Source: Populus alba (lineage: Eukaryota > Streptophyta > Magnoliopsida > Malpighiales > Salicaceae). Taken from it: a DNA stretch of 64,000 nucleotides. Where the stretch lies: NCBI RefSeq assembly GCF_005239225.2, contig NC_133293.1, positions 5,456,001-5,520,000 on the forward strand, read 5' to 3'. The translations under genes and the position numbers were made by a program. Shown piece by piece: positions 2,235 through 59,460 of this stretch; positions within the stretch are counted from its first letter, which is position 1, and each line of letters opens with the position of its first letter. The notes below the pieces were generated by a model. It had not been told where the DNA came from. It did not search any database and saw only the letters and a program-made list of their open reading frames with translations.

Positions 2235-4822
2235 TGTCACGAGGTCGCACTGCGGTGATGTCTAGCGACGACGAAAGCTTTTGTCGTGCCTCCTAGTGAG
2301 GTGTTGTGTGTTGGGAAGGTTTTTTAGATTTAATCATAAAATTATGATTAATGTTTAGGAGTCGCCATCTAGTATTATGGTCACTAGGAATTTATGGTTC
2401 ATGAGAGTCTGGGTAAGGGACCGGTTGTGTAAGGGGAAGACGCATTACCCCCAGTGCACCTTACCTAAGGTAAGCTGCATTGTTGTTTGATTGTTTTTCT
2501 GGATCGGGTTTATCTTCGTTGGTCATTTCTAGGGTTTAAAGTATATCTCTTTTTATGAGAAAGTTTATACCCTATTGAGTTAAATCCTAACCATTTTAAA
2601 GTCTGAATTTTAGCATCGTATTTTTACACCTTGTATTTTTAATACCTGAGGGTGTACTTTATCTTGTAATTTTACACCCCACAGATATTAAAATCTACAT
2701 TCGGACCCTAGAAAAAAAAAAGTTGGAAAAAGGTTTTTGATAGTTTTGTCAAATCCTAATGGATAATCATAAATTGGTTATAATATCCATTTTGCATTTT
2801 AAAACGTGAAAAAGATGCAATTTATGTTTTTATGAAGATATGCTTGGAAAAATTTTAGGATTTGGCTGTATGCATGAAAACAAAATATTTTTTTTTTTGT
2901 TTTAGAAATGAGAAATTAATTTAAAATATTTTGAGATTTTTTGGAAATATTTTCAAATTTGTTTTGAAATATTTCAGAAATAACTGAGTATTGTAATACT
3001 AGATTTGTATTTCACAGTGTAAATATATAACTCGATATTATGCAAAATAGATAGAAAAACATTTGAGAAAATCACAATTTTTTAAAATGATTTTTAAATT
3101 TTTTTGGATTTTTTTTCTTTTTTTATTTAAATGGGGGTTGGGCCGGATCCAGCCCAGCCATTTAGGCTAGGCCAGAATTGACCTGGCCCAAAGACAAAGT
3201 GAATTATTCTGACGCTGCATGCACAAAATGAATTCTGCATGCAGTGGCCTCAACAAAAAAAGAGGTGAAGCAAGGAGGAGGAGAAGCTATTGTCACTGGC
3301 CTGGAGTGAGGTTGGAGGTGGTCTAGTCATGGAAGACGAGAGGCTGATTGGTGGAGAGTTTTGGCCGTCAAAGTCGCTATGGGAGAAAGAAGAATCTGGT
3401 TTGCAGAGAAGAGAGGTTCACGGTGGCTCTCGATGATCGGTTGGTAGTGTGTTGGCTTTTTGTGGTGGAGTTGATGGCGGCTTTGGTTGGTGGCTAGAAC
3501 AACAGGGAGAGGGAGGGAGAGAAAAAACTGTAGAAACGGGGCCGAGAGGCTTGTTTTTTTTTATCAACTTTAGACCCAATTTCTCCTAACTCATGCCATG
3601 AAATTCACCTCTATTTATAGGCAGGGGAAAAGGAAAATCTTATCTACACTGAGGGAATTTGCAGCCCTTGATTCAGTTGGAAAGGCTCCCAACCATTGGC
3701 TTAAAATAGGAATCCTGATTTGTCAAATCTACAGAAAAAGGTTGACTGAGTTGGCCTTTTTAGGTCAATGCCAGCGCCGATGCCGATGGGTTGTCATTCA
3801 GCCTGAATGGGTCATATGAGGTCGTAGAGAAATTATATAGGATCATTTTCGTGCAAGATTTGTTAGCTTTGATGGATGTTAGATGCACTAAATGCACTTA
3901 CAAAGTAGGTGACATGAGCAGCTTTATCCGGGTAAAAGAAGAAGACAATGAATAGTGACGAGACAACGCGTTGTCTGGTCTTTTTTTTATTATATACTCA
4001 AAACAACATCGTTTTAGTTTTGAATTAGGGATTTTGCCAAAGTTTAATGTAGTCCTCTAGCTTTCAATTTGTTTTAATAGAACCCCTGATTGACCATAAA
4101 CTTTTGATTTAATTTAATTAAACCCCTAATGAACTTTAATTGGAACCCCCAAGTTATGCGCCTATTGCGATATGGTTCTTGGTCCCGGATTTGTTCAATT
4201 AAACCTCTAATTAACCATTAAATTTTTAATTTCTTCAATTTCACCCTCGGTTTTTATTAATTGAGCCCCTATAGTTTGATGCCTTTTGCAAATTAGCCCT
4301 TGACTGTTCAATTTAACCCCTAATTGACCATAAAACTTCAATTTTCTTGCAATTTTACCCCTGATTTCAATCAATTAACTTGGTAAAAATTAAATTTAGT
4401 CTCTAAAAATTTCAATCTTCTCAATTAAGTCCATATTAGGCTCTCAAACTTAACTTTTCACCAATTAAGCCCCAAATAAAATTAATTTGACCCATTCAAT
4501 TAAGTCATTGCACTTAATTAAATCCTTCAATTGGATCCAAATTAATTCTTAAACATAATTAAATTTCAATTTGACTTATGATTAAATCAAATTGGCCTAT
4601 TAAAAATTTAATTATGTCATCGAATTTAATTTTTATGCAAATTCATCCAATAATCATTCAATTTGACATTGAATTTGTATTTTTCTGCATTTTCGGCGTA
4701 ATGGGGTGCCTTAACATTTCTCTTAATTTCTCAACCTGTTTTCTTCATGTTGCCAGCATTTATTTTATTTTTATTTTGAAAAAAATAAATTTTGAGGAAT
4801 AACCGAGAATTAGGTTATGATA
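2235..4822 (-). mobile_element. Solo LTR of a Ty3/gypsy (Ogre/Tat-like) retrotransposon
   Basis: The 2588-bp unit starts TGTCACGAGG and ends GGTTATGATA (canonical ending CA mutated to TA). It is flanked by the same 5 bp, AATTG, at 2230-2234 and 4823-4827, a typical LTR target-site duplication. It shares several blocks with the other LTRs of the window: the GAGTCGCCATCTAGTATTAT block near 2361, a GC-rich block near 3130-3180, and a tail of short AATTAAxCCC-rich segments (about 4030-4560). The TATA motif lies on the minus strand, so the element points left. No gag or pol is present, so it is read as a solo LTR made by LTR-LTR recombination. Confidence 0.85.
3611..3620 (-). promoter_or_regulatory. 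Predicted LTR TATA box
   Basis: CTATAAATAG on the minus strand sits in the same relative place as the TATATAAA of the LTR at 43500-45932. It would start transcription near 3580 and divide U3 (right) from R/U5 (left). A perfect 16-nt palindrome, AGACAACGCGTTGTCT, lies upstream at 3961-3976. Confidence 0.55.
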
Positions 4823-29700: not shown

Positions 29701-30731
29701 AACGCAAGCATGCCATAAATATAATCTTCTTCTTGGTTTCTGGGTAGAACCTGTTGAAATGAAAAGTCTTGTTAACCCCAAGGTGGTTGATAATAAAATA
29801 TACCTTATGCTATCTGGACAGAAATGAACCTGTTGCACAAGGTCCAGGGACAGGTCAGGTCTACCCATGTAGAAACATAAAACTTGAGCTCTTTTAAGAG
29901 CAACTAGATCTCTTGGGTAATCATTGAGGAGCTGTAAAATAAAATGTATGCATCAAATGAAATTAGAGGTTGTATGATTAAAGCCCATATAAATCATTTA
30001 ATGACATAGTGTTCTAGCATTATAATTTAAATTATGTAACTAAGGAAAAAAAAAAGACTTGAGCTAAAATAAATTTAGAAAAAGCCCCCCTTTTTTGAGC
30101 ATTAAGGAAGAATAGGGATTTTCTCTCATGGCCAAAATGCATTAACAGATTAGCTTTAAGGATAGAGGGGGTGAAAGGGTACGCGTACCTTAGAATGAAA
30201 TTGAAGAGCAACATCATCATCTCTATTCTCACAAATCAAAGAATTAAGAGCATCGAAAACTGCTTTCTCATAAGGGGTGGCTTCTTCCTGTTTGTTAAAA
30301 GAAATTTCACAGGTGAAACATCCCATCAAAAGACAAAGGCCGTACATGAGTACAGAGGGCAAAGCACTTACAAGTCGAGCGTTTGCAGCCTGGATATGGA
30401 AAGAAGCTCGGGAAGGATTGGCAGAGGAGCAGAGGAAATGAGCTGCCAGAATATTGGCTAACACGCAGTCTTTGTCATGAAGTGTAGCTTCCAAAATCAC
30501 ACGCCTCCCTCTTCCATAACTAAGAACCTTCATTTAGCCAAGAATCAACACCAACCCAAAAAAGAAACTCCCTCTTTCTCTTTCTCTTTCTCTCTGGCAA
30601 TCCAATTAATAAGTGGAGATAGAGAAAAGAAGACAGACCTGGTGGTAATAAGAGTTGATGGCAGAGATGCAAGCATCCGAGGAAGTGTTGACCTCGTAAC
30701 CCCATTTGTCCAATTTAACACCACCTTCCAT
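26775..30731 (-). CDS. TTC38-like tetratricopeptide protein, 14 exons
   Basis: Exons, in reading order: 30731-30639, 30527-30372, 30287-30189, 29931-29830, 29750-29607, 29386-29292, 29185-29056, 28980-28876, 27970-27864, 27789-27738, 27361-27272, 27183-27099, 27015-26951, 26870-26775. Every intron is GT-AG and all phases close, giving 472 residues, close to the 469 I recall for human TTC38. Start is MEGGVKLDKWGYEVNTSS; end is EAAHFVQVV. Recognisable family blocks are RDLVALKRAQVLCFYMGR, LTHNWWHVALCYLEGH, ANWYLEWHLDVLILWAL and GASDEQLDVFNEVWYSMLL. TPR proteins are helical scaffolds for protein partners; the TTC38 family has no settled molecular role. At1g27150 is the Arabidopsis relative I recall. 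A solo LTR ends only 128 bp upstream of the ATG. Confidence 0.93.
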
Positions 30732-30853
30732 TTCTTCTGTCTTTCTTTCAACAATCACAGTGTTGCCGTCGCGGTCTCTGTAGGAGAAATAAGGACAGTT
30801 GCGACAGGGAAGGGTGTCGCGGACTCCACTAATATCTATTAGTAAAATTACTT

Positions 30854-30927
30854 GACATTGTCGTGACTCGATCCTTATACTGTGACGTTGTCGTGACTCA
30901 ATCCCCATTGGAAATGGCACAAAAAAA
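30854..30927 (+). repeat. Direct repeat, left copy, flanking the LTR
   Basis: This 74-bp stretch (GACATTGTCGTGACTCG ... GGCACAAAAAAA) recurs at 32671-32748 on the far side of the LTR with few differences. Within each copy TGTCGTGACTCxATCC occurs twice about 30 bp apart. It is much longer than a normal 5-bp target duplication. Confidence 0.8.
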
Positions 30928-31390
30928 GGAAAAAGGACCCAAACGTCATAGCGCCCATAAAATAATTTTTATTTATATAAAAAAATAATAATAAATTTTT
31001 AATATCTGGTTTTTTTAAGGAAAAATATTTTATTTAAGAAGTCTTCATCTATTATTATGGTCATTAAAAATCTTAACTAGTAAACTGAGATTCTATAGTA
31101 CGAGACTGGTTAAGTAAATGAAAAGATATTATCACCCTTTAAATGTTCTACCACGAATAATTTCAACTCTGTTGATAAAAATTCGTAACTATGAGGAAAA
31201 AATCAATATATATATATATTCTTGATCCTAATATTAGTGAATAAATTAACAAAAATATATTTTTTCTAAGACATGTAAAATTTTTATTTCTACACTTTCC
31301 ATAATTTTTTTGTTTATTTATTTTTATTTTTTTAGGGCTGGGCCCAACTCAGCCCACATGGGCTGGGCTGGACCCTGCCGGCCCGGCCCG

Positions 31391-31496
31391 GTCACTGGCC
31401 CAAGCCAGTGACCTGGCTGGGCTAAGCCCTGCACGCGTGAAGTAACTTCACGCGTGCTGCACTGTGCGAAGGTAATTAAATTACCTTCGCACAGTG
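31391..31496 (-). other. Cluster of three hairpins in the LTR leader
   Basis: Hairpin 1: 9-bp arms 31391-31399 and 31404-31412 with loop CCAA. Hairpin 2: 13-bp perfect arms 31431-31443 and 31445-31457 (GCACGCGTGAAGT). Hairpin 3: 18-bp perfect arms 31460-31477 and 31479-31496 (CACTGTGCGAAGGTAATT). Hairpins 2 and 3 have a single central base. All lie downstream of the predicted LTR TATA box, so they would be in the transcript leader. Confidence 0.9.
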
Positions 31497-31920
31497 TTTA
31501 CAAACACAATATGCAGAGAATGAAAGGAGAAAGGAAAGAGCGTACCTGCTTCGAGAGGTGAAGATGCTTGCAGCGCTGATGGATTCTCGCATATTGCTCC
31601 CCTTTATCTTCCTTCTATGTTCACTTGTCTGCGTGTTCTTTTTGTTTGTTCAGCGGCTTTTGAAACCAAGAAGATGATGAAGAGGCCGGCCTGCTGAGAA
31701 TTTGTTTTGATTCTGGGTTTTCATTGTTTGCAGGGACGAAGGCAGTGGTAGAGCCAATACTCGTCTCTGTGTATTGCTGCTCTCTTGTTCTCTCCGTCTC
31801 TCTGTGTATTATTTCTTTCTCTGGATTTATGCTATGTTTTTCCTCTATTCTTTTCTCCGGTTTCTCGTTTTTTGTCTGGGTTTTAGCTTTTTTTTTTTTT
31901 GGTGCGCATCCCTTCTCTGG

Positions 31921-31929
31921 TTTTTTATA
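31921..31929 (-). promoter_or_regulatory. Predicted LTR TATA box directed toward the TTC38-like gene
   Basis: TATAAAAAA on the minus strand, next to CGCCGAC, as in the complete element where CCGACCTCTATATAAACC occurs at the equivalent place (TATA at 45074-45081). Confidence 0.55.
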
Positions 31930-32670
31930 GTCGGCGAATGACATGCATTTCCCTTGGTAATGAAGACTTAGGACCGTTTATTGCAGGAGCAGTGATGGCA
32001 GGGGCGTCCGTTTCTCTGGTTTGGTGAGCGGAAGAAGACGAACAATTCTCTTGAAACGACACCGTTCGATTGTTAATAGCCATTTGTGTTTTGGTCCTTG
32101 AAGTTTTTGAAATTTTCGTAAGCAAGCCCTTGGGTAAACTTTAATTGGACCCCTGTATTTCAGCACCTTTTACAAGTTAATCCTTGGACTTTAATTTGTT
32201 GCAATTGTACCTCCAATTAACCCCAAACTTTGCTATTTCTTCAATTAAGTCCCTAATTTTATTAATTTAATTAAATCTAAGCCCAATTAAGTCTAAAACT
32301 TATCAATTCTTCAATTAAGACATTGATTTGATTAATTAAATTAAATTCAAGCTTAATCAAATATCAAAACTTATCAATTCTCCAATTAAAATCTTGATTG
32401 GATTAATTAAATTAATTTCAAACTTAATTAAGTCTTAAAACTTATCAATTCTCCAATTAAACCCTTGATTAGATTAATTAGATTAATTTCAAAGTTTAAT
32501 TAAACCCCAAAACTACTAATCATGTTGCCCTTAACCCAAATTTTAATTCATTCTTCATTTATTTCATTCTACTTGTTTTTAATCATTATTATTTTTTATC
32601 ATCATTTTTTATCCTTTTCAGTAAATAAAAGAATAATAAAAAAATAAAAATGATAAAAAAAATTAGGTTA

Positions 32671-32748
32671 TGACAATTGTCGTAACTTTATCCTTATACT
32701 GTGACATTGTCGTGACTCAATCCCCATTAAAAATGGCACACAAAAAAA
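32671..32748 (+). repeat. Direct repeat, right copy, flanking the LTR
   Basis: Copy of 30854-30927. Both carry the shared core TATCCTTATACTGTGAC or its one-base variant and then TTGTCGTGACTCAATCCCC. Confidence 0.8.
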
Positions 32749-33541: not shown

Positions 33542-35633
33542 TCCTATTATTTTACGTTTTTTTTATATAATTTTTGCTTTTTTTAAAAAAAGTTTTTTTT
33601 CTTCATTTTTTCTTTGTTTTTTTTTAATGGATATTTTTTTAATTTTTTCTTTTGTTAATGTTAAATTTTTTTGTATCTCAAACTTTTATAACACGTATTC
33701 TGGGTTTAATGAGTTAACCTAGATTTTTTTTTTTTATAGTTTTTTATTTTTAATTAATTTTTTTGTTTAATTAATTATGGGTTAACTAGTCAATTTTTTT
33801 TTTCTATGCAGTTATCAAACTTTCATGACGCGAATCCCAGGTTTGACGGGTTAATTTGGTTTGAGGGTTAACCCAATTAATTCAGATTTTTTTTTTAACT
33901 TTTTGCTTTACTTTTTTTTTTTTCATTTTTTTTAATGGATATTTTAAAAAAAAAATTTTGCTAATGTTAAATTTTTTTCTATCTCAAACTTTTATAGCAC
34001 GCATTCCAAGTTTAACAGGTTAACTCAATTTGTTTTTTCTGGTTTTTCTTTTTAATTAATTTTTTATTTCCACAGTAAAACACTGATTTCTTAGGCCTTT
34101 TTTTTTTTTTTTTTTTTAAGTTGTCTTAGTTTTTTTAGCTGTTTTTTTTTTTTTATGTTTTTTGGGATTTTTTTTTGCTTCTTCCTTTGTTTTTTTTTAT
34201 TAACAAATTTTTTTTGTTTAATTTAGTTTATTAATGTTTAATTTTTTTATTTAGTTGTCAGATTTTTATGACACGTTTACCGGATTTAACCGGTTAACTT
34301 GGTTTGACAAGTTAAAATATAATTTTTTTTTTGCTTTTTATTCTTTTTAATTAATTTTTTTTGTTTAGTTTAGTTTGTTAATGTTAAATTTCTTTCTATT
34401 TAGTTATTAGACTTTCATGACACATATCCCGAGTTTCACGGGTTAACCTGGTTTCACGAGTGAACCCAGTTAATTCCGGGTTGACCCGTCAATTTTTTTT
34501 TTATTATTTTCATAAATGTTTTTGTTTAATTTAGTTTGTTAATGTTAAATTTTTTTATTTAGTTATCAGACTTTCATGACACAAATCCTGGGTTTAACGG
34601 GTTAGCATGGTTTGACGAGGTAACCCGGATTTTTTTTCTTTTTAATTAATTAATTTTTGTTTAGTTTAGTTTGTTAATGTTCACTTTTTTTTTATTTAGT
34701 TACCAGACATTCATGAAACGAATCCCGGGTTAACTTGGTTTGACAAGTTAACCTGAAATTTTTTTTGCTTTTTTTTTTTTTTCTTTTTTCATTATTTTTT
34801 TCGTTTAGTTTAGTTTGTTAATGTTAAATTTCTTTATATTTAGTTTTTTTTCTTCTTAGAGGTTTTTTTTCTTTTCTTTTTTCTTTTTAATTAATTTTAT
34901 TTAATTAATTTAGTTTATTAATATTAATTTTTTTTTCTAAGTAGTTTTCGGCCGATGCCTTTAGTTTTTTTAGTTTTTTGTTATTTTTATGCCTTTGACT
35001 GTGGACTGCACAGTGGAGTTCACAGTGAAAAGGCTGATGCCTTTTGTTTTTTTTTTTTCAATTAATTTTTTTTCTTTTAATTTAAATTGTTAATGTTAAT
35101 TTTTTTTCTATTTAGTTATCAAACTTTCATTTCACGGATTCTGGGTTTGACATGTTAACTTAGTTTGACGAGTTAGCCCAGTTAATTCTGGGTTAACCCA
35201 TTAATTAAAATTTTTTTTTTAATTATCAAACTTTCATGATGCGAATTCAAGTTATGACGGGTTAACCTGGTTTGAAGGGTTAACCCAATTAATTCATATT
35301 TTTTTTCTTTTTTCTCATTAGTTTTTTTCTTCCTGTTGGTTTTTTTTTAACTAATCTATTTAATTATTACACTTTTATGACACGACCTTGCAGCCAGACC
35401 CACGTCCAATGCTATTGGATCTGGTATTGTAGTTCAGACACTTTTATGCTAAGGGTTAAACCAAGTTTAATGTTATTATTAATATTATAAACATTACTCT
35501 TGGATCAGGCGATGTAACCAAAACTGAGACTCTTAGGTATAACTTTACAAAAAACATAACACTTTTAAATTTTGGCTATTTTTGAAATGCAAAAAATAAT
35601 TGACCCGCGGCATCGCGTGGGGCATGTAACTAG
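33542..35633 (+). mobile_element. Helitron-like block with internal periodic repeats
   Basis: The right end has GACCCGCGGCATCGCGTGGGG (35602-35622, hairpin stem CCCGCG/CGCG-T-GGG with loop GCAT), about 9 bases, then CTAG at 35630-35633 followed by T. This is the layout of a Helitron 3' terminus (hairpin then CTRR, insertion before T). The interior is at least ten diverged copies of a unit containing GTTAATGTTAAATTT, then TTTCATGACACGAATCC, then GGGTTAACCTGGTTTGACGAG, spaced about 130-300 bp. The left end with its TC dinucleotide was not located, and no Rep/helicase gene is present. Confidence 0.5.
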
Positions 35634-35639
35634 TTATAA

Positions 35640-37342
35640 CTAAAAACAATTAGTGTTTTACTGTAATAGTGTGAATTACTTTGGACTATAAGTATTTTTA
35701 TTGTGAATTGCACTGTTTGATATTATAGTCTTAATTATTGGAGACCGTAAGTGAATTCAATGTGAATTATATTGTTTGGTGAGGTATAATGAGGCTACAG
35801 ACCCTAGGTGCCTGGTTGCAAACCCGCTCCCCTGGGTCTGAAGATCTCTCAATGAAGAATAATAAATTTATTTGGTGGGACATGATAAAGTTGTAGACCC
35901 CAGGAAAGCGGGTTTGCAGACTTGCACGCCTGGGGTTTGGAGACCCGCTCCCTGGGTGCAGACCCATCTGCTGGGGTCTCTTTTGATCTGTACCTAAGTT
36001 GTATAGACCCCCTAGGGGTTGGAGACTTGTGTGGCTGGGTCTGTAAACCTTGTAGAGAAGAAAAATAAAAAACAATATAATAAAAATTATTATTATTATT
36101 ATTATTATTATCATCGTTAATAGTTAATAATTGTTTTTTAAAAATTATTGCTATAAAAACTTTAGTCAGACATGTTTAATATTATTATTAATAAGATAAG
36201 TATTATTATTTGTCTTCTAAATATTATTATCTTTATTATAATTACAAGTATTAATATTAAGAATATTATTGTTGTGATATAAATATTATGATTTTTATTT
36301 TAATTAATATTAAAAATACCTCTATTTTTATTATAAATATTATAATTTTGATTATAATTAATATTATTCATATAATAATTAATAAATTTGTAGAAATATT
36401 ATAAATATTGAAAAGCAAAAATAGATTTGATTTGTAGGGTAAAATTAAAAATTAATATTACTATTATTGTTATTGTTATGGTCATTAGTATTTTTGTTTT
36501 TTAAATTATTATTTCCATCGAAGAAAAATCATAATTTGTTTTTTAAAGATTGAAAAATATAAGAACTTGGATACATATACTCGATTTACAGACACCTAAA
36601 GCTGGATTTGCCCACCCCTGGGTGATAGGGACTAATCCACGCGCTTGACTGTAAACCCAGGCGAGCGAATATGTAGGAGCATGCGCCTGGCTGCAGATAT
36701 AAGCAAGCAGGTCTGCAAGCCTGCACCCTAAGGGTTGCAGACCCGTGTGCAAGGGCTGTATACTTGAGCGGTGGGTGCAAAATCACGCATTGAGCTGTCT
36801 CTTCTGGGCTGTCTCTTCTGACCTGCGCCGGGGTTCTACAGCAAGTCCACGTACCTTGTACTTGGTCCCCTGCCAAGTCCAAGTACACTGGACTTGATCA
36901 CCTCTGCGGACGCTATAGAGAAGAAAAATAAAAATAATAACAATTATTGTTATTATCATCATTAATTGTTAATAATTGTTTCTTAAATTATTACTATAAA
37001 AACTTTGGCCAGACAATTTTAATATTATTATTAATATGATAAATATTATTATTTGTATTCTAAATATTATTATCTTTATTATAATTAAAAGTATTAATAT
37101 TAAGAATATTATTATTGTGATATAAATATTATGATTTTTATTATAATTAATATTAAAAAAAACCATTATTTTTATTATAAATATTATAATTTAGATTATA
37201 ATTAATATTATTCATATAATAAATATTATAGATTTGATTTGTATGATAAAATTAAGAATTAATATTACTATTATTATTGTTATTATCATCGTTAGTAAAA
37301 AAAAAAACTAGAATTGTTTTTTTGAAAAGATTAAAAAATATA
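35640..37342. repeat. Complex tandem repeat array, left part
   Basis: Units of roughly 0.7-0.8 kb combine a GC-richer half made of AGACCC/GGGTCT-type palindromic segments (35790-36060, 36580-36910) and an AT-rich half of ATTATTATT and TTATAATTAATATT segments. The AT half ends in AAAAATATAAGAAC, seen at 36553-36567 and 37336-37347, followed by TTGGATAC in intact units. No protein coding is credible here. Confidence 0.75.
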
Positions 37343-37347: not shown

Positions 37348-38671
37348 TGTCGCACTCGACATCGTGGCGATCCTAAAAATAATCCTCGAATATGGAAAAA
37401 GAACATATTTCTGGCATCCGGTTCTTTTAAGGAAAAAAGTCTCGTTTGAGGAGTCGCCATCTAGTATTGTGGTCACTAGAAACCCTAACTGGTCAGCAGA
37501 GATTCCATAGTTCGGGATTGGTTACGTAAAAGAGAAGATATTATCACCCCTTAAATGTTCTGCCTAAGGCAAACTGCATTGCTGGTTTTGTCTTAAATTG
37601 CTACATGCTTATTAGTTTATACTATGATGATTTGTTTAAATATTCCTGACTCTAGCGCCAGTTAATATTTGAGCTCGAATAATTCCAACTCTGGCGTTGG
37701 TAAAAATTCGTAGCTAACAAACAATTAGATCAATATTCTTTATTTCCTACTCTAGCACCAGTGAACAAATAAATAAAAATAAATTTATTTTTATGCATGC
37801 ATATATTTTTTTATTTTTCTAGCTAAATAAAATAAAATACAACGAATAAAAATAATATAAATTTAAATCAATATTTTTATTCCTAACTCTGGCACCAGTG
37901 AATAAACCAATAAATTTACATTATTTTTATTCATGATATACATTTTTTTATTTTTTTCTACCTTTTTTATTTTTCTGTTTTTTTATTTTTTTTTCTTTTT
38001 TTGGGTTGGGCCCTAGCTCAGCCTACATGGGCGTCTTCAAAACGACGCTGTTTGGGGATAACAGTTGCCATTTTCACTTTGACCCGCAAAGTTTCAACAT
38101 TTTATAATTAAGCCCCTGGTTTAAACTGTAATTGCCCCCAAACGTTAATATTTCTTCAATTAAGTCCCTGATTTCATTAATTTAATTAAATCCAAGTCCA
38201 ATTAAGTCTCAAAACTTAACAATTCTCCAATTAAACCCTTAATTGGATTAATTAAATCAATTCCAAGCTTAATTAAGTCTCAAAACTTATCAATTCTCCA
38301 ATTAAATCCTTGATTGGATGAATTAAATCAATTCCAAGCTTAATTAAGTCTCAAAACTTATCAATTCTCCAATTAAATCCTTGATTGGATGAACTAAATT
38401 AATTCCAGGCTTAATTAAGTCTCAAATTTATCAATTCTTCAATTAAACCCTTAATTGGATGAATTAAATTAATTATAAGCTTAATTAGATTAATTCCAAA
38501 GTTTAATTAGACCCCAAAACTTCCAATCATGTTGCCCTTAACCCAAATTTTAATTCATTCTTCATTTATTTCATTTTACTTGTTTTTTTCATCATTATTT
38601 TTTTTCATCAATTTTTTTTATTCTTTTTAGTAAATAAAAATAATAAAATGGTCAAAAATTGGGTTATGACA
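37348..38671 (-). mobile_element. Left (3') LTR, internally deleted
   Basis: Starts TGTCGCACTCG and ends GGTTATGACA. At 1324 bp it is about 1.1 kb shorter than its partner. Colinear similarity breaks after CTCAGCCTACATGGG (about 38032) and resumes at CGTCTTCAAAACGACG, removing what lies at about 44180-45232 in the partner, including the hairpins and TATA box. A second loss of about 60 bp lies at 38128, between C-runs. Confidence 0.9.
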
Positions 38672-39049: not shown

Positions 39050-39540
39050 CCCAAGTAAAAAAGGAAAATGAGGGCTCGAAGGCACACTCAAAAGAATGTG
39101 AGGGCTCAAAGGCACTCAAAAAGTAAAACGAGTGCTCAAAGGCGCTCGAGGAGGAAGGTGAGTGCTCAAAGGCACTGGTGCTCAAAGACACTTGAAGGGG
39201 CAAGCGAGTGCTCAAAGGCACTGGTGCTCAAAGGCACTTGAAGAGCAAAGCGAGTGCTTAAAGGCACTTGAAGAGGGCTCAAAGGCGCTCGAAGAGAAAC
39301 AAGGGCTCAAAGGCGCTCCAAGAGGAAAGCGAGTGCTCAAAGGTACTCAAAAAGGAAAGCGAGTGCTCAAAGACACTCGAAGAGGAAAGCGAGGGCTCAG
39401 AGGCGCTCGAAAAGGAAGGCAAGTGCTTAAAGGCACTCGAAGGAGAAAGCGAGGGCTCAAAGGCACTCGAGAACGAAGGTGAATGCTCAAAGGCACTTCA
39501 AAAGAAAAGCAGGTGCTCAAAGGCACTCGAAGAGGAAGAA
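39050..39540. repeat. 30-bp minisatellite in the retrotransposon 3' region
   Basis: About 15 units of the type GAGTGCTCAAAGGCACTCGA followed by AGAGGAAAGC, with unit-length variants. The unit length is a multiple of three, so long open frames appear on both strands (for example 39162-39612 plus); they encode only a repeated decapeptide and are not credible genes. Position between gag and polypurine tract matches the hypervariable 3' region of Ogre/Tat elements. Confidence 0.93.
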
Positions 39541-39612
39541 AAGCACGAAGATTTTTCAGATGGCCTATTTCTTATGGGCGGCCTTCCCATGTTGAAAAAT
39601 TCTCAAAGATGA

Positions 39613-41934
39613 AAAACATTCAACATCAATTTTGATCTTTGGCCATTTCAAGTTAGCCTTCCACTTGATGGATTCCGTTGGAATTTTCTCATATGAAATT
39701 TAAAAAAACTCATTGTCCAATGTCTCAAATTTTAGATGATATGCATGCATCTTTACCTGTTTTGAAATATAAGCCCCCATTTCTTCTTAGTCTTCTCGTT
39801 GCTTGGTTGGTGAGATCTTGCTATCTGATTTGAGTCATCTTTATCGTTTGGCTTTCTAGCCCACTCGAGTTAGCCCATATAAGTCTTTTTCCAGATTTGC
39901 TTGGACAACTCAACCTTTGTGGTGCCTATTGTGACCCACTTGCTTGCTCAAGATTTTTTTGACTCGTCAAATAATTTCAGAGGATCATTCATTACCCCTC
40001 GTCTCACTGCTAAAAACATTCGGTATCACTTGCTGAAAGGATCAAGTTGTCTTTTGTAAACCAAAATGCCCCCTTGTCTAGTTGAAGGAAATTACTATCT
40101 CATTTTCTTGAATTTTTCCTTTTAAGCACAATGTTGCCCCCTTATAATGGTCATCGCCTTTAAGTGTGCTCCATTAGTGACTCAGACAAATAATGGTTTT
40201 AAGAGGTCATTCTCTCATTTCTATCCTTTTCAGTTTGGTGAAGGATATATGGGTCTAGAATGAATCTTGAAATCTTGATCTTGCATTTTGAAAACAAAAA
40301 TTATTTTGATATGAGTCAAACAATTTGCTTTTGAAATTTTGCAACTCCTTGGTATTTTCTTTCTTAAAAAAGAGATTATTTGCTCTTGTGTTTGGCAATG
40401 AGGTCTTCAGTGAAAATATATCATGAGATGACCTTTTATTTCAAAGTGAAGGGCTTGAGAAAAAACTCGAGGTTTTGTATGAGAAAAAATTGTCTCTTTT
40501 TGAACATTTATTTTTATCAGCATGAATAATAATGAATAGTTTATTCTTGATGTCATAAACTTATGAAAAAGTATTCTTTGCATTTTGAGAGCATTGTTTA
40601 TTGTTCTAGGTTGCTTGCTTGCTTGATTAGATATGACTTTTACAGGCACGTAATGTAGGCTGTGGTTTTTGGCTATGAAAGAAAAGGATTCATAAGGCTC
40701 AAAGAGTGTTTCAGGGTTTCAAAGACTGAGGATCACCATCAACAGTTTGACTATTGATGTCATTCATATTTTCTTTTGCCGCTCTTCTTTGATTTGCTGC
40801 TTTTTTTTTTTCTTTCTTTTTGTTTTGCTAGAGCATACTCACTTCATCTTGGTTATCACTTTTTCTTGTGATTTGGGCATGCCCCCTAGCATTTGAGTTT
40901 CTTGGGCTCTTTTGCCTTTTGGCTTTCTCACGGCTTTATCATCTTTCTTGATCATTGAAATTTCACTTTTCCCTAGTGTGGGGTGTGATCCTAGTCAGGT
41001 TTTTTCATGAAAGAAAAATTATTCAGGCTCAAAAAGGGATCGCAAGGGATGCACTTATTTTAGAAAGTGAAAGGAATAACAAAGATGACCTTTCCTCATT
41101 TCAAGCGCAAGCAGTTAAGATCAATAAACTTTGACCTTATCCAGTATGATGGTTTGGTCTTTGCAAAGATGTATTTCATGAGTCATGAGTAACGAGTTCA
41201 CTACATACCATTATTCATACATTTAAAAACACATGTTTCAAGAGTCATGGGGTAAGGGTGTTTATTCATTTCTTTTTTTCTTTCTTCTTTTTAGAGTTTG
41301 GTCACCTTTATGAAGGATACATTTAAAAACACATGTTTCAAGAGTCATGGGGTAAGGGTGTTTATTCATTTCTTTTTTTCTTTCTTCTTTTTAGAGTTTG
41401 GTCACCTTTATGAAGGAGTTGCTTGATTCACTTGTCATTCTACAAGTATAATGTCAAAAATATAATTTTTGAATAAACATCAAATTATCTTTGAAATCAA
41501 AATGCCAGATCAATTTTTTTTAAAACTCCAATAGGAAATTGATTTTGGTAAAGGAGATGAATTGTGTCTATGAGATCACGCAAGGCTTCAAAGATGTGTT
41601 TGTGAGTCTTTATAAGAAAACTCAGAAAAATGAATAAAGCTTAATCGTAAACACGATTGAATGACAAACTCATTATTTTCATTGAAACTTTAGAAAATAA
41701 GTTCAACAACAAAGAACTTATGACAACATCTTGGGTTATGAATATTGGCATGATAACATATAAAGAGGCTAAACATTTAGCAATCATTAATTGGAATTTC
41801 TGGAATCATTCATTCACCTTGACAAGGGCATCTTTTCAACAGTCAATTGAAGTCATATGTAGATCATTCTCGGCCTACTATCACCATAGCTTTATTTTCA
41901 AAACAGTTGATATCTGGGAGTCGATGCGAAGAAA
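39613..41934 (-). other. Non-coding 3' region of the retrotransposon
   Basis: No open frame with retroviral-type motifs is seen on either strand. It contains a perfect 100-bp tandem duplication (41217-41416). Pol would normally lie here. Confidence 0.6.
41217..41416. repeat. Perfect 100-bp tandem duplication
   Basis: Bases 41217-41316 are repeated at 41317-41416 without a visible difference, beginning ATACATTTAAAAACACATG. The identity suggests a recent event. Confidence 0.95.
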
Positions 41935-42927
41935 TTAACTATAGGAACGGTAAGTGCCTTGGCAACCACCTTTTGTGAAACCTTTCTTCTCAGTCGGGTT
42001 AGCAATCTTACCTAACCCAATAGCTTGTTCAATCCTTTCAGCTATAACAACCAGGTCAGTGAAATGTTGTGCAGAGCTTCTAACCAAGTATTCAAAGTAC
42101 GGAGCTTCAAAGGTGTTGGAAAATAAATTGATCATCTCTTTTTTCAATATGGGAGGATTAACTTGTGCAGCTACCTTACTCCATCTTCGGGCGTATTCTC
42201 TTATGGACTCCTTGTTGTTCTTCTCCATAGCTTGCAAGCTTAAACGATCAGGGCCCACGTCTATATTGAACTTATATTGCCTCATGAAGGCATCAACTAA
42301 GTCCTTCTATTTTTTAATCTTGGTATTGTCCAACCATATATACCAAGTGAGGGCAACATCACTCAAGCTGTCTTGAAAGAAATGAATCAGCAGTTTCTCA
42401 TCATCAACCACCTCGGCCATTTTGTTGCAATATGCTTTAAGATGAATTATAGGACATTGAGTTCCCGTATATTTGACAAATTCTGGCATTCTAAACTTTT
42501 TGGGAATGACAATGTTGGGCACCAAACACATCTCAATAGCCTTTATAGGATCATATAGGCGAATTCCCTCCATTGCTCTCAATCTTTGCTCTAGGGCAAC
42601 TAATTTTTTCATACCATCCTTTTTTACCCTCTTGCCCTTTTGAGATTCCTTTTCTATAGAATCAATGGTAAACGACATTCTCGTGGGGTATGCTGGTTGA
42701 AAACTCATGGCTTGTTGAAAATCAGATGACAACCCATTTGCCCCCAAATTATGTGGATTGAAGGGATTTGCGAGCATAGGTTTAGGCTGAGCTATAAGTG
42801 TTGCTTTTCTAGATTTATCTCTCAAGGCCTGCTCGAGTAGACTAGTAAGCCTTACGACTTCTTCCTTAAGATTGTCCACCTTTTTTTGACGTTGGGCTTC
42901 CAACTGGGCTTTTTCTTCGTTTTCCAT
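41935..42927 (-). pseudogene. Retrotransposon gag with one nonsense codon
   Basis: The frame starts MENEEKAQLEAQRQKKVDNL at 42927 and runs 206 codons to a TAG at 42307-42309. It continues in the same frame to the stop at 41935 (total about 330 codons). The N-terminus is a coiled-coil-like segment (RLTSLLEQALRDKSRKA). The core is the Retrotrans_gag fold: PKKFRMPEFVKYTGTQCP, LLIHFFQDSLSDVALTWY, then, after the stop, ESIREYARRWSKVAAQVNPP and SSAQHFTDLVVIAERIEQ. The related gag at 55.3-56.2 kb has tryptophan at the stop position (KIRRWKD), so a single TGG-to-TAG change explains it. No zinc knuckle is visible before the end. Confidence 0.9.
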
Positions 42928-43479
42928 TTGTCTAACGAGTGTTATAGATGAGTTTCAATGAGGAACCTATATTTCAACATGCTAAATGTAAATCATGTAA
43001 TTATACAAAAATGCTGAAGCAATTAAAAAAAATGCATATGAAATGCGGACTTGCCGTACATGGGGTGACAACCTAATAGGAAGATCCTAATTATTGAGTG
43101 CATCAAAGGGTTGATCATTATCTAGTTTCAAAGGGTCCCTTGCATGCTTAGTGATCGTCCATGAAAGGTCGATATGAGGCTTACAAGTAGTGTGAAGATA
43201 GAGGCCCTGAGTAATATCAGTTTGGCATATCAACCACTTCCAAGTAAACAATCAAACGAGAGTTGGATGGTTTCACGAGTCTTACCCAGGCTAAAGCATT
43301 AGGGTACCGTTACTTCCCCACTTTTCTTAGGATGTAAAGTGTGTGCTCTTAACGTGATGCATGGCAATATAAACAAGGATGCATGCTAAAGCAATAAATG
43401 CAAGAAAAATAAATAAACAATTAAACACAACAAACAAAATAACAATAATAAGACAAAAGACAAAGCTTGATCCTAAAGT

Positions 43480-43497
43480 CCCCAGCAGAGTCGTCAT
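43480..43497 (-). other. Primer-binding site of the gag-only element
   Basis: On the minus strand TGACGACTCTGCTGGGGA starts 2-3 bases inside the right LTR. It differs by one base from TGGCGACTCTGCTGGGGA, the site I recall for Ogre/Tat elements (assigned to tRNA-Arg). Confidence 0.75.
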
Positions 43498-44220
43498 TCT
43501 ATCGCACCCGACATCACAACGACCCTAAAAATAATTCTCTTGAATTATGGAAAAAGAACAAATTTCTGGCATCTGGTTCTTTTAGGGGAAACGGTCTTGT
43601 TTGAGGAGTCGCCACCTAGTATTATGGTCATTAGGAACCCTAACTGGTCAACAGAGATTCTATGGCTCGAGATTGGTTACGTAAAAGAGAAGATTTTATC
43701 ACCCCTTAAACGTTCTGCCTAAGGCAGACTGCATTGTTGGTTTTGTCTTAAATTGCCAAATATTTATTAATTTATGCTATGATGATTTGTTTATAATATT
43801 CCTGACTCTGGCGCCAGTGAATATTCGAGCTCGAATAATTCTAACTCTGACGTTGGTAAAACTTCGTAGCTAAAAAACAATTAGATCAATATTCTTTATT
43901 TCCTACTCTAGCACTAGTGAACAAATAAATAAAAATAAATTTATTTTTATGCATGCATATATTTTTTTATTTTTCTAAATAAATAAAATAAAATACAACG
44001 AATAAAAATAATATAAATTTAAATCGATATTTTTATTCCCGACTCTGGCGCTAGTGAATAAATCAATAAATTTACATTATTTTTATTCATGATATACATT
44101 TTTTATTTTTTTCTACCTTTTTTATTTTTCTGTTTTTTTATTTATTTTTATTTTTTTAGGATGGGCCCAGCTCAGCCCACATTGGCTGGGCTAGGACCTA
44201 GCCCCGCCCAGCCCAACCCG

Positions 44221-44336
44221 GTCACTGGCCCAAGCTAGTGACCTGGCTGGGCTACGTCCTGCACGCGTGAAGTAAATTCACGCGTGCTGCACTGTGCGAA
44301 GGTAATTAAATTACCTTCGCACAATGTTTAGAAACA
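44221..44336 (-). other. Three-hairpin cluster in the LTR leader, second copy
   Basis: Same arrangement as 31391-31496. Hairpin 1 has one mismatch (GCTAGTGAC), hairpin 2 keeps 11-bp perfect arms around a three-base centre (GCACGCGTGAA ... TTCACGCGTGC), and hairpin 3 keeps its long arms with one change near the end. Confidence 0.88.
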
Positions 44337-45073
44337 AAATATGCAGAGAATGAAGAGAAAGGAAAGACCGTACCTGCTTTGGGAGGCGAAGATGCTTGCA
44401 GCGCGGATGGATTCTCGCCTTTGCGTGTGACCTTGCCTTCTGCTTTCCTTTGCTGCCGTTCCTACTGCCTTTTCTGCTTTTTCTTTGTGTTCCTCTGTTT
44501 TCTTAGTTCTTGGGATGGAGGAATTAAGAAGATGATGATGCCGGTTCTCTCGGGTGGTTCTTCTTTCTTTGTTTTCTTGCTCTGTTTTAATCTGTGTTAT
44601 GCTTGAATCTGGAACTAAACCAAAGCTGGGTTTAGTCCTCTATTTTCTTCGTGTTCGTTTTCTCCCCCCTGTGTCTGCTTTGTTTCCTCTCTGTTTTTGC
44701 TCGTCTGGTGGTGTTCCCAGTGTTACTTCCTCTCCTTCGGTTTGTTCCCTTTTCTAGTTCTCTGTCCGATCTTCTCCGTCTAAGACGAAGACAATGGTGG
44801 TAAAAGCACGAGGTGCTGCTGGTTGATGGACCAAAATTTTCCCTGGTTCGGTTTCTCTCCCTCTCACTCCCCGGTTCTATCTTTTTTTCCCCCCACCCTT
44901 TCGTTTCTGTGTTCGCTGCTTTAGGTTGGTATTGGTTAGGAAAAGGTTTAATTCTGGTGTGGGATTCTAAAAAAAAGGCTTAAAATTCGGCTGGTATATG
45001 TGTGTTTCTCTCCTCTGGTTTCGTTCGTCCCCCCCCTCTCTCCAACCAGCCCCTGTTCTTCGAGTTCTCTCGG

Positions 45074-45081
45074 TTTATATA
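45074..45081 (-). promoter_or_regulatory. LTR TATA box
   Basis: TATATAAA on the minus strand within CCGACCTCTATATAAACCGA. Transcription would start near 45045, giving a leader of about 1.5 kb before the primer-binding site. Confidence 0.65.
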
Positions 45082-45932
45082 GAGGTCGGCGGGTTGGTAA
45101 TGGGTGGTAGGCTGAGGGTCAACCACCATTAAAGCACTCATAACTGAAGCCAACGGACGATTACTGTTGCAACGCCTCTCTGCCTTTACTGTCGAAAACC
45201 GTCGCTGGCTTAAAGAAGAAGAAGATGAACAACGTCTTCAAAACGACGTCGTTTGGGGATAACAGTGGCCATTTTCACTTTGACCCGCAAAGTTTCAAAC
45301 ATTTTATAATTAAGCCCCTGGTTTAAACTGTAATTGCCCCCCTGCATTTGCGCGCCATTTCCAATGTAATCCTTGGATTTTAATTTCGCAATTTGGACCC
45401 CAAACGTTAATATTTCTTCAATTAAGTCCCTGATTTCATTAATTTAATAAAATCCAAGTCCAATTAAGTCTCAAAACTTAACAATTCTCCAATTAAACCC
45501 TTAATTGGATTAATTAAATCAATTCCAAGCTTAATTAAGTCTCAAAACTTATCAATTCTCCAATTAAATCCTTGATTGGATGAATTTAATCAATTCCAAG
45601 CTTAATTAAGTCTCAAAACTTATCAATTCTCCAATTAAATCCTTGATTGGATGAACTAAATTAATTCCAAACTTAATTAAGTCTCAAATTTATCAATTCT
45701 TCAATTAAACCCTTAATTGGATGAATTAAATTAATCACAAGCTTAATTAGATTAATTCCAAAGTTTAATTAGACCCCAAAACTTCCAATCATGTTGTCCT
45801 TAACCCAAATTTTAATTCATTCTTCATTTATTTCATTTACTTGTTTTTTCACCATTATTATTTTTTTTTATCATCATTTTTTATATAATAATAATAATTA
45901 AAATAAAAATGGTCAAAAATTGGGTTATGACA

Positions 45933-45937: not shown

Positions 45938-48271
45938 TTGGATACAAACACCTGATGCTAAGGCTATCAAGCCGTGGGCACTAGGCCAGACTCGCAAACT
46001 TGCCTGTTGGGTCTCTTTTGACTTGTGTCTGGGGCTAACAGCCAAGTCCACGTACCCTGGACTTGGTCCCCACCCAAGTCTAGGTACATTGGACTTGGTA
46101 GCCTACCAAGTCCACGTATACCTTGGACAAGGCCGCCGCCAAGTCTAGGTGTATACTGGACTTGGCCGCTCCCAAGTCCACCTGTCCATCATCTGGACCC
46201 ATATGTAATAAGTCCATCATTCGAACCTAAATATAATGGGTTCATCTTCGAGACCCAAATATAATGAATCCAACATTTGTACCCATCTCTCTTGAGTCCG
46301 CACAAGACCCAAGGCTGATGCATCCATCGACAAAGTTGGACCCAAGAGAGGTGGGTACGGATGCCGGACCCAAGTATTTTGATTATAAGTAATATTATTC
46401 ATATAATAATTAATAAATTTGTAGAAAATATTATAAATATTAAAAAGAAAAAATAGATTTGATTTGTATGGTAAAATTAAGAATTAATATTACTATTATT
46501 GTTGTTGTTGTCATCATTAGTAATTTTTTTTAAAAAAATTGTTATTGCCATTGAAGAAAAACCATAATTGTTTTTTAAAAAGAATGAAAAATATAAGAAC
46601 TTGGATATAGACACCTGACGCTAGGTTAGACCCGCGTGCCTGGTCGCGCCCCCGGGCTACAGACACTTAGCGTTGGGTCTACCTGGCCTTGGGCAATAAG
46701 GACTGACCCATGCGCATGGCTGAACCCAGACAAGTGAGTATGTAGGCTTATGCCCTGGTCTACAAACCCGTGCGCAGGGATTGCATACTTGTACGATGGG
46801 TACAGACCCAGGTAAGCGGATCTGAAGGCCCATTGCCTAGGGTGTGAAGACCTATGTGTTGGGTCCTGCGTCAAGACCCAATTGTCACGGGTCCGGTGTC
46901 AAGACCCAAGTTTCTTGGGTCTTAGGTTTCTAAATATAATTATTTGTATTATACATATAATTATTTTGATTATAATTAAAAGTATTGATATCAAAAATTA
47001 TATTATTTGTCTTATAATTAAAAGTATTGATATAAAATATATTATTATTTGTCTTATAAATATGATTATTTTTTGTTATTATTAATATTAAAAATACTAT
47101 TATTTGTATTATAAATATTATTATTGTTAAAATTATTAATAAAATACTTATTAAATTGAACAAAATATTATTAATATTGAAAAAAAATAGATTTCACTGG
47201 AAGGGTAAAATTAAAAAGTATTATTATTATTATCATTAATAAATTTAAAAAAAATATTATTGCTATTGAAGAAAAACCATAAATTTGATTTGAAATGATT
47301 AAAAAACTATGAGAACTTAAATCATGCAAGTTTAATATTATAAATATTATTACTATAAAAATATATATAATTGATTTCAAGAGTAAAATAAATTATTATT
47401 ATTATTATTATCATTAACTTGGATCAGACATCCCCTTCGAGACCCAAAAAACTTGGAGCTGGAAAGGACGCCTCACCAAAGTTGCTTGAGTGTGGCAGGA
47501 GTGTAGACTTAAATCCTTTAAGTCTTGCAACCTCGCTTGACCCAAGACTATGTGTCCTGTGTATGGATCCAATTCTCATGGGTCATGTATCGGGACCTAA
47601 TTATCTTAGGTCTGTTGTTAGGATCAAAGGCTAATGGGTCATGCGTCAGGACCCAATTCACTTGGGTCCTACTTCAAGACTCAATTCTCTTGGGTCTGGT
47701 GTCAACACCCAAAGCTAATAGATGATGCTTCAAGACCTAATTTTCTTGGGTCTAGTGTGGGGATCCAAGGCTAACGAGTTTTATGTCAGGACCTAATTCT
47801 CTTGAGTTAGGCATCAAGATCTATTTCTCTTGGTTCTGGCATCAAGACCTAAGGTTATTGAGTCTTAAGTTTCTAAATATAATTATTTGTGCTATAAATA
47901 TTATTATTTTTATTATAATTAAAAGTATTCATATCAAAAATATTATTATTTTTATTATAATTAATATTATTAATAAAATAAGTAATAAATTTGAAAAAAA
48001 AATTATTATTAGTATTGAAAAACAACCATATATTTGATTTGAATGATAAAATGAAAAATTATTATTATTATCATTAATAAATTTGAAAAAAAATATTATT
48101 GCTATTGAAGAAAAACCATATATTTTATTTGAAGGGATTCAAAACTATGAGAACTTGGGTCAGACCAGTTTAATTATTAATATTATTATACTCATTAATA
48201 TTATTAAATTTGAAATAAATATTGCCACTATAAAAAAACATAGAATTAATTTGAAGGGTAAAATCAATTAC

Positions 48272-56905: not shown

Positions 56906-59460
56906 TGTCGTGGGGCGACGTCAAATGACACACTTTTAGCCTCCTGGGATGTATTCGGAAGGAAAGGGTTTTGAATTTAATTATAAAATTATGATTATAA
57001 GGTTCAAGAGCTGCCAGCTAGTATTATGGTTACTAGAAAACCTATGGTCTGCGAGAGTTCGGGTAAGAGACTGGTTATGCAATGAGAAGATGCATCACCT
57101 CCAGTGCATCATACTTAAGGTAAACTGCATTGTTTTTTACTGTTTTTCTAGGTCAAGTTTCTATTCGTTGGTCTTTTTATAAGGTCTAATGTAGATTTCC
57201 TTTCATGAGGAAGTCTTTATCTTATCGGGTTAAATCCTAACATTTTTAAAGTCTAAATTTTGCACTTTGTATCTTTAATACTTGAAGGTATACTTTACTG
57301 TGTAGTTTTACACCCTTAAGTATTAAAGTTTACAGCTAAACCCTAAAACTTTAAATATCAAATGAATAAAATGTTTGGTGAGGATTTTTGATATTTTAGC
57401 TAAACCCCAATGGATAACCATAAACTGATTACGATATATATTTTTTTTGCATTTTTAAAACATGAAAAAGATGCAATTTTTTTTTAATGAAAATATACTT
57501 AGAAAACTTTTAGGATTCGGTCGTATGCATGAAAACAAAATAATTTTTTTTTTATAGAGGAAATTAATTTAAAATTTTTTAAGACTGTTTTCTAATTTTC
57601 AAATTTTTTTTTAGAAAACGTTTAGGAGAAAACTGAGTATTTTAATCTAGATTTGTATCTTACAGTGTAAACATATAGCTCAAAATTAATGCAAAATTGG
57701 TAGAAAATATGCAAGAAAATCATAAAAAATTTTGAAAGGACTTTTGAATTTATTTTTATTTTTTTTATATAATATTATATTATTAAATATAAATTGAGCT
57801 GGACTTGGCCCAATTAGGTTGGGCTAACTAGCGGACCAATAGACCCTTTTTTTTTTAGGTGGGCTAGATCTAGCCCTGCCCATGACCCACGTGGTCGCTA
57901 GCCCAACCTAGTGACTATGTTAATTAATTAGCCACTGCATGTAGAAATGAATTATGTATGCAGCATCCACAAGGGAAGAAGAAGAAGGGGGGAATGTTGC
58001 TTGGCATTGGGTTGTGGTCGTGATGAAGAGGTTCGACAGGTGGCTCGAGAGGCGTTGATGGAAGAAATGGTTGCCAATGTTAGTTGTGGAAGGAAGAAGC
58101 AGAAGCTTGCAAAGGAGAGAGTAAAGCTCGCGATGACTGTTTCTGACGCGAGGTGGCTGGGTGGTGGTCATGTTGGCGACTCATAGTAGTTTTGAGTTCG
58201 TGGTTAATGAGGACACAACAATTAAGGAGGAGGAGGAATGACTGAGATCAACGATGGAGGGAGAGAAGAAAGAGGATGGAAAAACGAGGGTAGGTGCTAG
58301 TTTTTTTCAAACTTTGGCTTTAGATTTCTTCCTTCTCAAGCCATGAAATCCACCCTTATTTACAAGGGGTGGAAGAGGAATTTTTTTCTTTAATGGTGCC
58401 AAATCTTGGCCCTTGATTCGACCCGGAAGGATCCCAACCATTCACTCAAAGTTGCCATCACGACCTGAAAAGTTACTGCAGAAGGGGCTGATTATGTTGG
58501 TCATTTTGGAGTGGTGCCATAACCATTATGATGTCAATTGAGCAGGAAAGACCATACTCGGGTGTTGTCATACGTCAGACCATCGTTTGTGTGCAAGTTT
58601 TGTCGAATTTGGTGTAGAGATAAGACATTAAATGCTTTGAGAAAAAGATTATCGAGCAGTGTTTTTTTACTTAAATGAAGAAGAAGATGAATAGTCATTA
58701 GACGATGCATCGTTCCCCCCCTTTTTTATTGTAAAATAAAGCTGTTTTTAGGATTTAGGGTTTTAATTTAGAAGTTTGATCAAATATCAATGGGGTCATC
58801 CTACTTTTAAGTTTTTTCAATTTCATCTCTAATTAACCTTAAACTTCCAATTTTATACAATTTTACCTATCCGAACTTCAATTTTAGCCTTGAATTTTAA
58901 CGCCTCTTTCATTTTTGTTCTTAGTCTTGGATTTATGTAATTTGACCCTCAATTGACCATTAAACTTTTAATTCTCTTCAATTTCACCTCTAATTTCAAT
59001 CAATTGAGTCATCATAGTTCGACGCATTTTGCAAAATGGTCCCTGGCTATTTGTTTTTAATTTAGCCTTTAATTGATCTCTAAAACTTTAATTTTCTTGC
59101 AATTTTACCCCTAATTTGAACCAATTGACTTTGTAAAAATTAAATTTGGTCTCTTGCACTTCCAACCTCACAATTAAGCCCAAATTAGGCTCCCAAAACT
59201 TAATGTTTCACCAATTAAGCCCCTAATACAATTAATTTAACTCATTTAAAGTATAATTAAGTCCTTGTATCTAATTAAATCCTTTAATTGGATCCAAATT
59301 AATTCTTAAGCATAATTAAACTTTAATTTGGCCCAAAATTAAATTAAATTGGCCTATTAAAAATCTAAGTATGTTCTTATATTTAATTTTTATGCATATT
59401 CATCCAACAATGATTTAATATGACATTAAATCTGCATTATCTTTTCAGTTTTGGATATAA
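56906..59460 (-). mobile_element. 5' LTR of the second Ogre/Tat-like element
   Basis: Starts TGTCGTGGGG at 56906. It is colinear with the solo LTR at 2235-4822 through shared blocks (AGTATTATGGTTACTAG near 57020, TTTAATACTTGAAGG near 57285, CTGCATGTAGAAATGAATTATG near 57935, and the AATTAAxCCC tail from about 58790). Similarity fades near 59460, about 120 bp before the expected end. The opposite LTR was not found left of the gag, so the element is truncated. Confidence 0.78.

Follow-up and report, generated by a model that had tools for sequence, protein, structure and literature searches.

What a run of near-perfect hairpins is doing inside the long terminal repeat (LTR) of a poplar retrotransposon is the question raised by a 64,000-nt stretch of Populus alba DNA (NC_133293.1, positions 5,456,001 to 5,520,000; here called the window), for which a preliminary description pointed out three consecutive stem-loops in an LTR leader. 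The reading that we favor, at a probability of roughly 0.4, is that the hairpins form the center of a splicing and poly(A) module that acts at the RNA level, located in R of a poplar LTR of the Ty3/Gypsy type, possibly Tat/Ogre-like.

Two related elements in the window

The window is plant DNA with host-type genes, encoding a wall-associated-type kinase, a PPR protein, and a DUF569 protein. The retrotransposon features that concern us lie on the minus strand:

43500..45932, minus strand: 5' LTR of element 1, array bearing, starting with TGTCATAACC
37348..38671, minus strand: 3' LTR of element 1, with array, donor-like site, leader, and TATA box deleted
30940..32675, minus strand: isolated LTR, array bearing, here called element 2 (3' end approximate)
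43479..43496, minus strand: primer-site-like TGACGACTCTGCTGGGGA, after the 5' LTR of element 1
41935..42954, minus strand: gag open frames in two pieces, ATG at 42927, with relatives in the protein search

Element 1 has what is expected of an LTR retrotransposon, namely, two LTRs, a 5-bp target duplication (GTTCT) outside both of them, a primer-site-like sequence, and a polypurine tract, the purine-rich gagggggcaac preceding its 3' LTR. The 3' LTR has suffered a deletion of ~1.05 kb, one end of which falls within the fourth hairpin. The gag search returned 388 matches; among the 120 listed, many carried the retrotransposon gag domain PF03732, and Populus was the source of all 8 for which an organism was named. 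A Pfam search with the window's own 215-amino-acid (aa) frame gave no matches. The elements are probably of the Ty3/Gypsy type. We take TGACGACTCTGCTGGGGA at 43479..43496 to resemble the Ogre primer site, a likeness that makes the Tat/Ogre-like placement a candidate.

Other repeats were seen in and near the two elements. The element 2 LTR is bracketed by a 76-bp direct repeat (30853-30927 and 32671-32746, 89% alike), whose length greatly exceeds that of a 5-bp target duplication. On the strand of element 2 and ~210 bp past its downstream end, a coding-looking stretch opens with a possible start codon (30729-30731), and the LTR may lie within the promoter region of a host gene. Between gag and the 3' LTR of element 1, a 30-bp unit is repeated in tandem (39058-39612), and open frames of 106 and 116 aa run antisense to the element in this region; Retand elements have tandem repeats and antisense frames ahead of the 3' LTR (PMC11963269). 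Element 1 also holds 100 bp duplicated exactly in tandem (41217-41417), and the repeated DNA on either side of it (46042-46118 and 36842-36903) has short dyads around GGACTTGG, among which is a perfect 12-bp stem at 46090-46114. Elsewhere, diverged repeats of ~140 to 160 bp form an array at 33595-35347, and the stretches 2313-4681 and 56961-59438 are ~74% alike in the same order, perhaps as an old duplication.

An array of four hairpins

The array consists of four hairpins, H1 to H4, which occupy ~165 nt of the transcribed minus strand in the two related LTRs, at 31334-31496 in element 2 (copy 2) and at 44158-44326 in the 5' LTR of element 1 (copy 1). It is retained in 2 of the 3 LTRs of the window and missing, by deletion, from the 3' LTR of element 1.

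31460..31496, minus strand: H1 of copy 2, perfect 18-bp stem, 1-nt center
31431..31457, minus strand: H2 of copy 2, perfect 13-bp stem, 1-nt center, CACGCGTG in both arms
31381..31422, minus strand: H3 of copy 2, 10-bp stem (31390-31413, 4-nt loop) plus outer pairs
31340..31375, minus strand: H4 of copy 2, GC-rich hairpin
44290..44326, minus strand: H1 of copy 1, 15 bp plus one U.G wobble
44261..44287, minus strand: H2 of copy 1, 11 bp, 5-nt loop
44209..44254, minus strand: H3 of copy 1 with outer pairs, one A.C mismatch
44158..44208, minus strand: H4 region of copy 1, from the RNA fold

Of the perfect 9-, 13-, and 18-bp stems first reported for copy 2, the two longer ones stand, each with its 1-nt center, while the shortest is a 10-bp stem with a 4-nt loop. 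The same trio had been placed at 44221-44336; a second copy is indeed present, but it ends at 44326, and its stems are imperfect (the wobble, the 5-nt loop, and the A.C mismatch listed above). Retention of the hairpins in two insertions agrees with the arrays of the element 1 5' LTR and of element 2. The GC-rich fourth hairpin, the extra pairs of H3, and the absence, through loss, of the array in the element 1 3' LTR are additions to that account.

Palindromes of this kind had been called hard to keep by chance. When loops are limited to 5 nt and the GC content to 30% or more, the window has 7 inverted repeats with stems of 10 bp or longer; 60 first-order Markov simulations averaged 0.35 and never exceeded 2. 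For stems of 13 bp or longer, the window has 3, and every one of the 60 simulations has 0. The hairpins are real and far above chance expectation, and their position is likewise read directly from the sequence. Folding of the minus strand as RNA, which the preliminary description had suggested as a check, yielded strong structures, with -121.8 kcal/mol for copy 2 (z of -12.2 versus shuffles) and -109.2 kcal/mol for copy 1 (z of -10.5). Since the opposite strand of copy 2 folds equally well (-125.1 kcal/mol, z of -14.0), the energy is silent on which strand acts and on whether the action is that of RNA or DNA. A search of the window against Rfam 15 at the gathering score gave no matches. As regards a siRNA precursor, stems of 10 to 18 bp are short for a dicer substrate.

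Signals on both sides of the array

Both copies display the same order of parts, a splice-donor-like CAG/GTACG, a pyrimidine tract, H1 to H4, an A-rich tract with AATAAA, and TTTATTCACT, the last of which is present in all three LTRs of the window:

45074..45081, minus strand: TATA-like box of copy 1, upstream of the array
31924..31929, minus strand: TATA-like box of copy 2, upstream of the array
44369..44376, minus strand: splice-donor-like CAG/GTACG of copy 1
31541..31548, minus strand: splice-donor-like CAG/GTACG of copy 2
44337..44366, minus strand: pyrimidine-rich tract of copy 1, by composition
31497..31543, minus strand: pyrimidine-rich tract of copy 2, by composition
44082..44157, minus strand: A-rich tract of copy 1 with AATAAA (first at 44152)
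31283..31333, minus strand: A-rich tract of copy 2 with AATAAA (first at 31328)
44053..44062, minus strand: cleavage-element-like TTTATTCACT of copy 1
31236..31245, minus strand: cleavage-element-like TTTATTCACT of copy 2

Consistently with the original placement of the hairpins in the LTR, on the transcribed strand and downstream of a TATA box, TATA-like boxes lie upstream at 45081 and 31929; the hairpins are also well ahead of the primer-binding site, as had been stated, lying ~660 nt before the primer-site-like sequence of element 1. In the predicted fold, the first three AATAAA motifs of each A-rich tract are mostly unpaired (0.90 to 0.97). The long-range fold pairs the pyrimidine tract with the leader, leaving it unpaired at only 0.14 and 0.05, and this predicted pairing counts against a simple exposed far-upstream element.

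Ahead of the donor-like site, the leader of element 1 is free of ATG over 677 nt; 23 ATGs follow up to the gag ATG at 42927. The shortage is weak, as 8 of 300 dinucleotide shuffles were equally low, and it is absent from the leader of copy 2 (2 ATGs in 353 nt; 57 of 300 dinucleotide shuffles as low). A stronger figure from mononucleotide shuffles (8.8 expected, 0 seen) was set aside; because that deficit is mostly dinucleotide composition, the dinucleotide figure alone counts.

Conservation between the two copies

The LTRs look mosaic, with strongly different leaders joined to a near-identical island. Within the array island, 16 of 212 aligned sites differ between the copies; the counts are 214 of 448 in the upstream leader, which is nearly unalignable, and 98 of 353 downstream of the island. 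The island takes in ~90 nt upstream of H1, including CAG/GTACG and the pyrimidine tract, and so the conserved unit exceeds the hairpins. The start of U3 is conserved to about the same degree (36 of 353 sites differ; P of 0.37), which weighs against the module reading. With the structure of copy 2 as the reference, 14 of its 67 pairs have changed between the copies; 6 are still standard pairs, pairing is lost at 8 in copy 1, and none of the 14 is a paired double change. The lack of double changes and the 8 broken pairs also weigh against the module.

Relatives read as amino acids

Exact-pattern scans of viral contigs and genome contigs for other DNA copies gave no matches, and a search for related loci by gag alignment confirmed none of 155 stretches. 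A looser H1 pattern found nothing in the window, a null that says little because the pattern also misses the H1 of the window itself. Our view of the relatives is restricted to amino acids, in a meaningless 57-codon frame that is open by chance across H1 to H4 of element 2 and that is contained in predicted proteins of other copies. A search with this frame gave 39 proteins at an E value of ≤10. A nine-sequence profile, which scored only the 7994 candidates sharing most words, gave 350 proteins, 120 of them listed; the examined set comprised 121 proteins.

Most relatives agree in their H3 and H4 readings (112 of 121 have GHW), although the constancy of H3 is inflated because search words were taken from the H3 region and open frames exclude some mutations. 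The readings of H1 and H2 vary. One class of H1 reads Leu-Cys...Ala-Gln, while P0196 and P0238 instead read Gln-Cys...Ala-Leu, a swap compatible, as far as amino acids can tell, with CTG and CAG having traded arms; only one side of this exchange is present in P0138 and P0206. A third class of H1 has other arms, with a pairing fit of 12.0 bits in P0203, 9.0 bits in P0165 and P0189, and 5.0 bits in P0173.

To these readings we applied two measures of pairability. From the 121 proteins, 27 segments were chosen via a hand-made anchor list, which missed P0217, and P0124 and P0160 are one reading among them. For 14 of the 27, no more than 4 in 100 residue shuffles attained the best codon-compatible inverted repeat; over 10 in 100 did so for P0125, P0137, P0147, P0158, P0165, P0171, P0173, P0179, P0184, and P0189. 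In hand-cut arm sets, own arms fit better than permuted partners for H1 (11/20000; 13 sequences, own mean of 13.7 bits and cross-class mean of 10.7 bits) and for H2 (133/20000; 18 sequences, 11.0 versus 9.6 bits), by permutation statistics that ignore kinship among the sequences. Neither arm set includes P0217 or, among the 27 segments, P0125, P0137, P0147, P0158, P0160 (the P0124 reading), P0184, and P0207; P0121, P0127, and P0203 are in the H1 set only. Foreign arms fit better than own arms in P0173 (H1) and in P0157, P0220, and others (H2). The check for compensatory changes proposed at the outset is thus negative between the window copies, while the amino acid readings of the relatives favor co-varying arms.

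Sequence is kept in H2 as well, since CACGCGTG fits both arms in 11 of 18 readings (0.03 expected from within-arm shuffles of the hand-cut arms) and structure alone needs no CACGCGTG; its retention weighs against the module. The flanking signals recur too. CAGGTRMG fits 8 of the 9 leaders of sufficient length (0.49 expected), the miss being P0238, and 3 of the 8 compatible leaders fit GTAAG. Past H4 there is an A-rich tendency, with a mean K/N/I fraction of 0.53 and at least half in 69 of the 105 proteins (of 121) that are long enough, and TTTATTCACT fits 15 of 20 long tails (0.19 expected). At the level of codon-compatible readings, the recurrence of the module and the fit of arms to their own partners are direct.

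A putative splicing and poly(A) module and its alternatives

In the reading that we favor, transcription would start shortly past the TATA box and proceed through a purine-rich leader to the donor CAG/GTACG. H1 to H4 would fold the ~165 nt separating the pyrimidine tract from the A-rich AATAAA tract into stems, so that the three parts of a plant-type poly(A) signal would come to lie near one another. Such a signal has a U-rich far-upstream, an A-rich near-upstream, and a cleavage part (PMC7457121, PMC1805453), and the candidate parts follow that order in the poplar LTRs, with the U/C-rich tract first, the AATAAA-bearing A-rich tract next, and TTTATTCACT last. The linear distance of 170 to 185 nt between the U/C tract and the A-rich tract is beyond the usual far-upstream range of about 30 to 155 nt (PMC7457121) unless the array is folded; because the array fills nearly all of this gap, folding would bring the parts together. 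In the 5' LTR, early polyadenylation would be suppressed by U1 snRNP bound at the donor, together with splicing to an acceptor that precedes gag, and splicing of the leader would yield a gag mRNA with a shorter leader. With an acceptor just before gag, the 23 ATGs ahead of the gag ATG would be removed. The start site, splicing, the acceptor, the poly(A) site, the U1 effect, and the function of the module are what we infer from this layout.

The roles proposed in the preliminary description omit the one to which the surroundings, in our tentative judgment, point most, a splice-donor/poly(A) module in R; RNA dimerization or packaging, which they include, is possible. We nonetheless think it unlikely that the palindromic stems past the donor pair unspliced genomic RNAs for Gag uptake, as in retroviruses. 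Self-complementary stems do stand in the 5' leader directly after the donor-like site, and Ty3 RNA dimerizes via a short palindrome near its 5' end (PMC11381356), but the predicted loops of H1 to H3 have just 3 to 5 nt, and a poly(A) site past the A-rich tract would put the array in R, at both ends and in spliced RNAs too. Placement in R or in U5 hinges on the poly(A) site, and U5 would favor packaging. Control of translation by the leader structure, or ribosome shunting on unspliced RNA as in plant pararetroviruses, whose leaders join a stem-loop, a poly(A) signal, and a splice donor (PMC5902531), is highly improbable. The leader of element 1, which is entirely without ATG, argues against it.

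The dyads could instead act as DNA, bound by plant transcription factors or chromatin proteins, for example at CACGCGTG in H2 or at TGGGCC in H3 and H4, which presumably resemble known plant factor sites. Such a role would account for the excess of CACGCGTG in both H2 arms and has a parallel in Sirevirus LTRs, whose conserved palindromic motifs have been proposed to be regulatory (PMC2829016); we judge it quite unlikely, given an array that the presumed start precedes by ~400 nt in copy 2 and ~720 nt in copy 1 and an H1 whose sequence changes while its pairability persists. Quite unlikely, too, is a functionless palindromic block that was acquired once, spread by recombination among LTR subfamilies, and is similar because the exchange was recent. 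The mosaic LTRs, with very different leaders and a near-identical island, the equal conservation of the U3 start, and the lack of double changes between the window copies are what such a history would leave; the arm-swap permutations and the recurrence of the donor-like site, the A-rich tract, and TTTATTCACT in relatives speak against it. The array may also be thought of as having originated in a small, MITE-like insertion.

Comparison with known systems

In foamy viruses, the donor lies in R ahead of the poly(A) signal, and U1 on this donor silences the 5' poly(A) site (PMC3694450). The poplar LTR is similar in that its donor-like site, in what we presume to be R, precedes AATAAA, and RNA structure surrounds both; for the four long palindromic stems, the excerpt of PMC3694450 states no foamy virus counterpart. 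Foamy viruses are vertebrate retroviruses with an R of 193 nt, and their donor use and 5' poly(A) suppression are experimental, whereas here the likeness is one of sequence layout. Another retroviral likeness is to HTLV-1, although we know of no Rex-like protein for the poplar element. As in the HTLV-1 R region with its Rex-responsive element, strong RNA structure could bridge the gap between parts of a poly(A) signal; the AATAAA of HTLV-1, located in U3, precedes the structure (PMC3694450), and that of the poplar LTR follows it. Stem-loops have been linked to conservation in long retroviral R regions (PMC3601003).

Among plant reverse-transcribing elements, the 35S RNA leader of cauliflower mosaic virus also combines structure with a poly(A) signal and a donor, but as one large stem-loop with the signals inside its arms and a ribosome shunt, unlike the four hairpins between signals described here (PMC5902531). 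Sirevirus LTRs carry conserved GC-rich palindromes as well; in these Ty1/Copia elements, a short dyad is repeated many times ahead of the TATA box (PMC2829016), whereas the poplar stems are four, different, longer, and downstream of it. Splicing of plant LTR elements is already known (PMC3735527, PMC12786077). BARE and Ogre splice their RNA, as would the poplar element, with introns in gag (BARE) or between reading frames (Ogre) rather than a donor-like site in the LTR (PMC3735527). Palindromes as insertion targets, treated in PMC6911290, are a separate matter. In the titles and opening lines of abstracts of the open-access papers that our searches retrieved, we found no description of a hairpin array between a donor and a poly(A) signal in a plant LTR. 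That a plant Ty3/Gypsy family has independently evolved a foamy-virus-like control, with a major donor inside R that precedes the poly(A) signal and a four-hairpin array evolving by paired changes, is an appealing but doubtful proposition.

At the 5' end of the element, an LTR must pass over its own poly(A) signal, and at the 3' end it must use that signal. Retroviruses have known solutions to this choice (PMC3694450), and in the excerpts of the plant LTR element literature examined we found no treatment of it. If the foamy-virus-like reading is true, the donor-in-R array would separate leader-spliced gag mRNA from the full-length genome. A recurrent block of donor, hairpins, and AATAAA would make the choice of poly(A) site a question testable in poplar through the splice and poly(A) sites of long-read RNA, and it would serve as a structural mark for annotating these LTRs.
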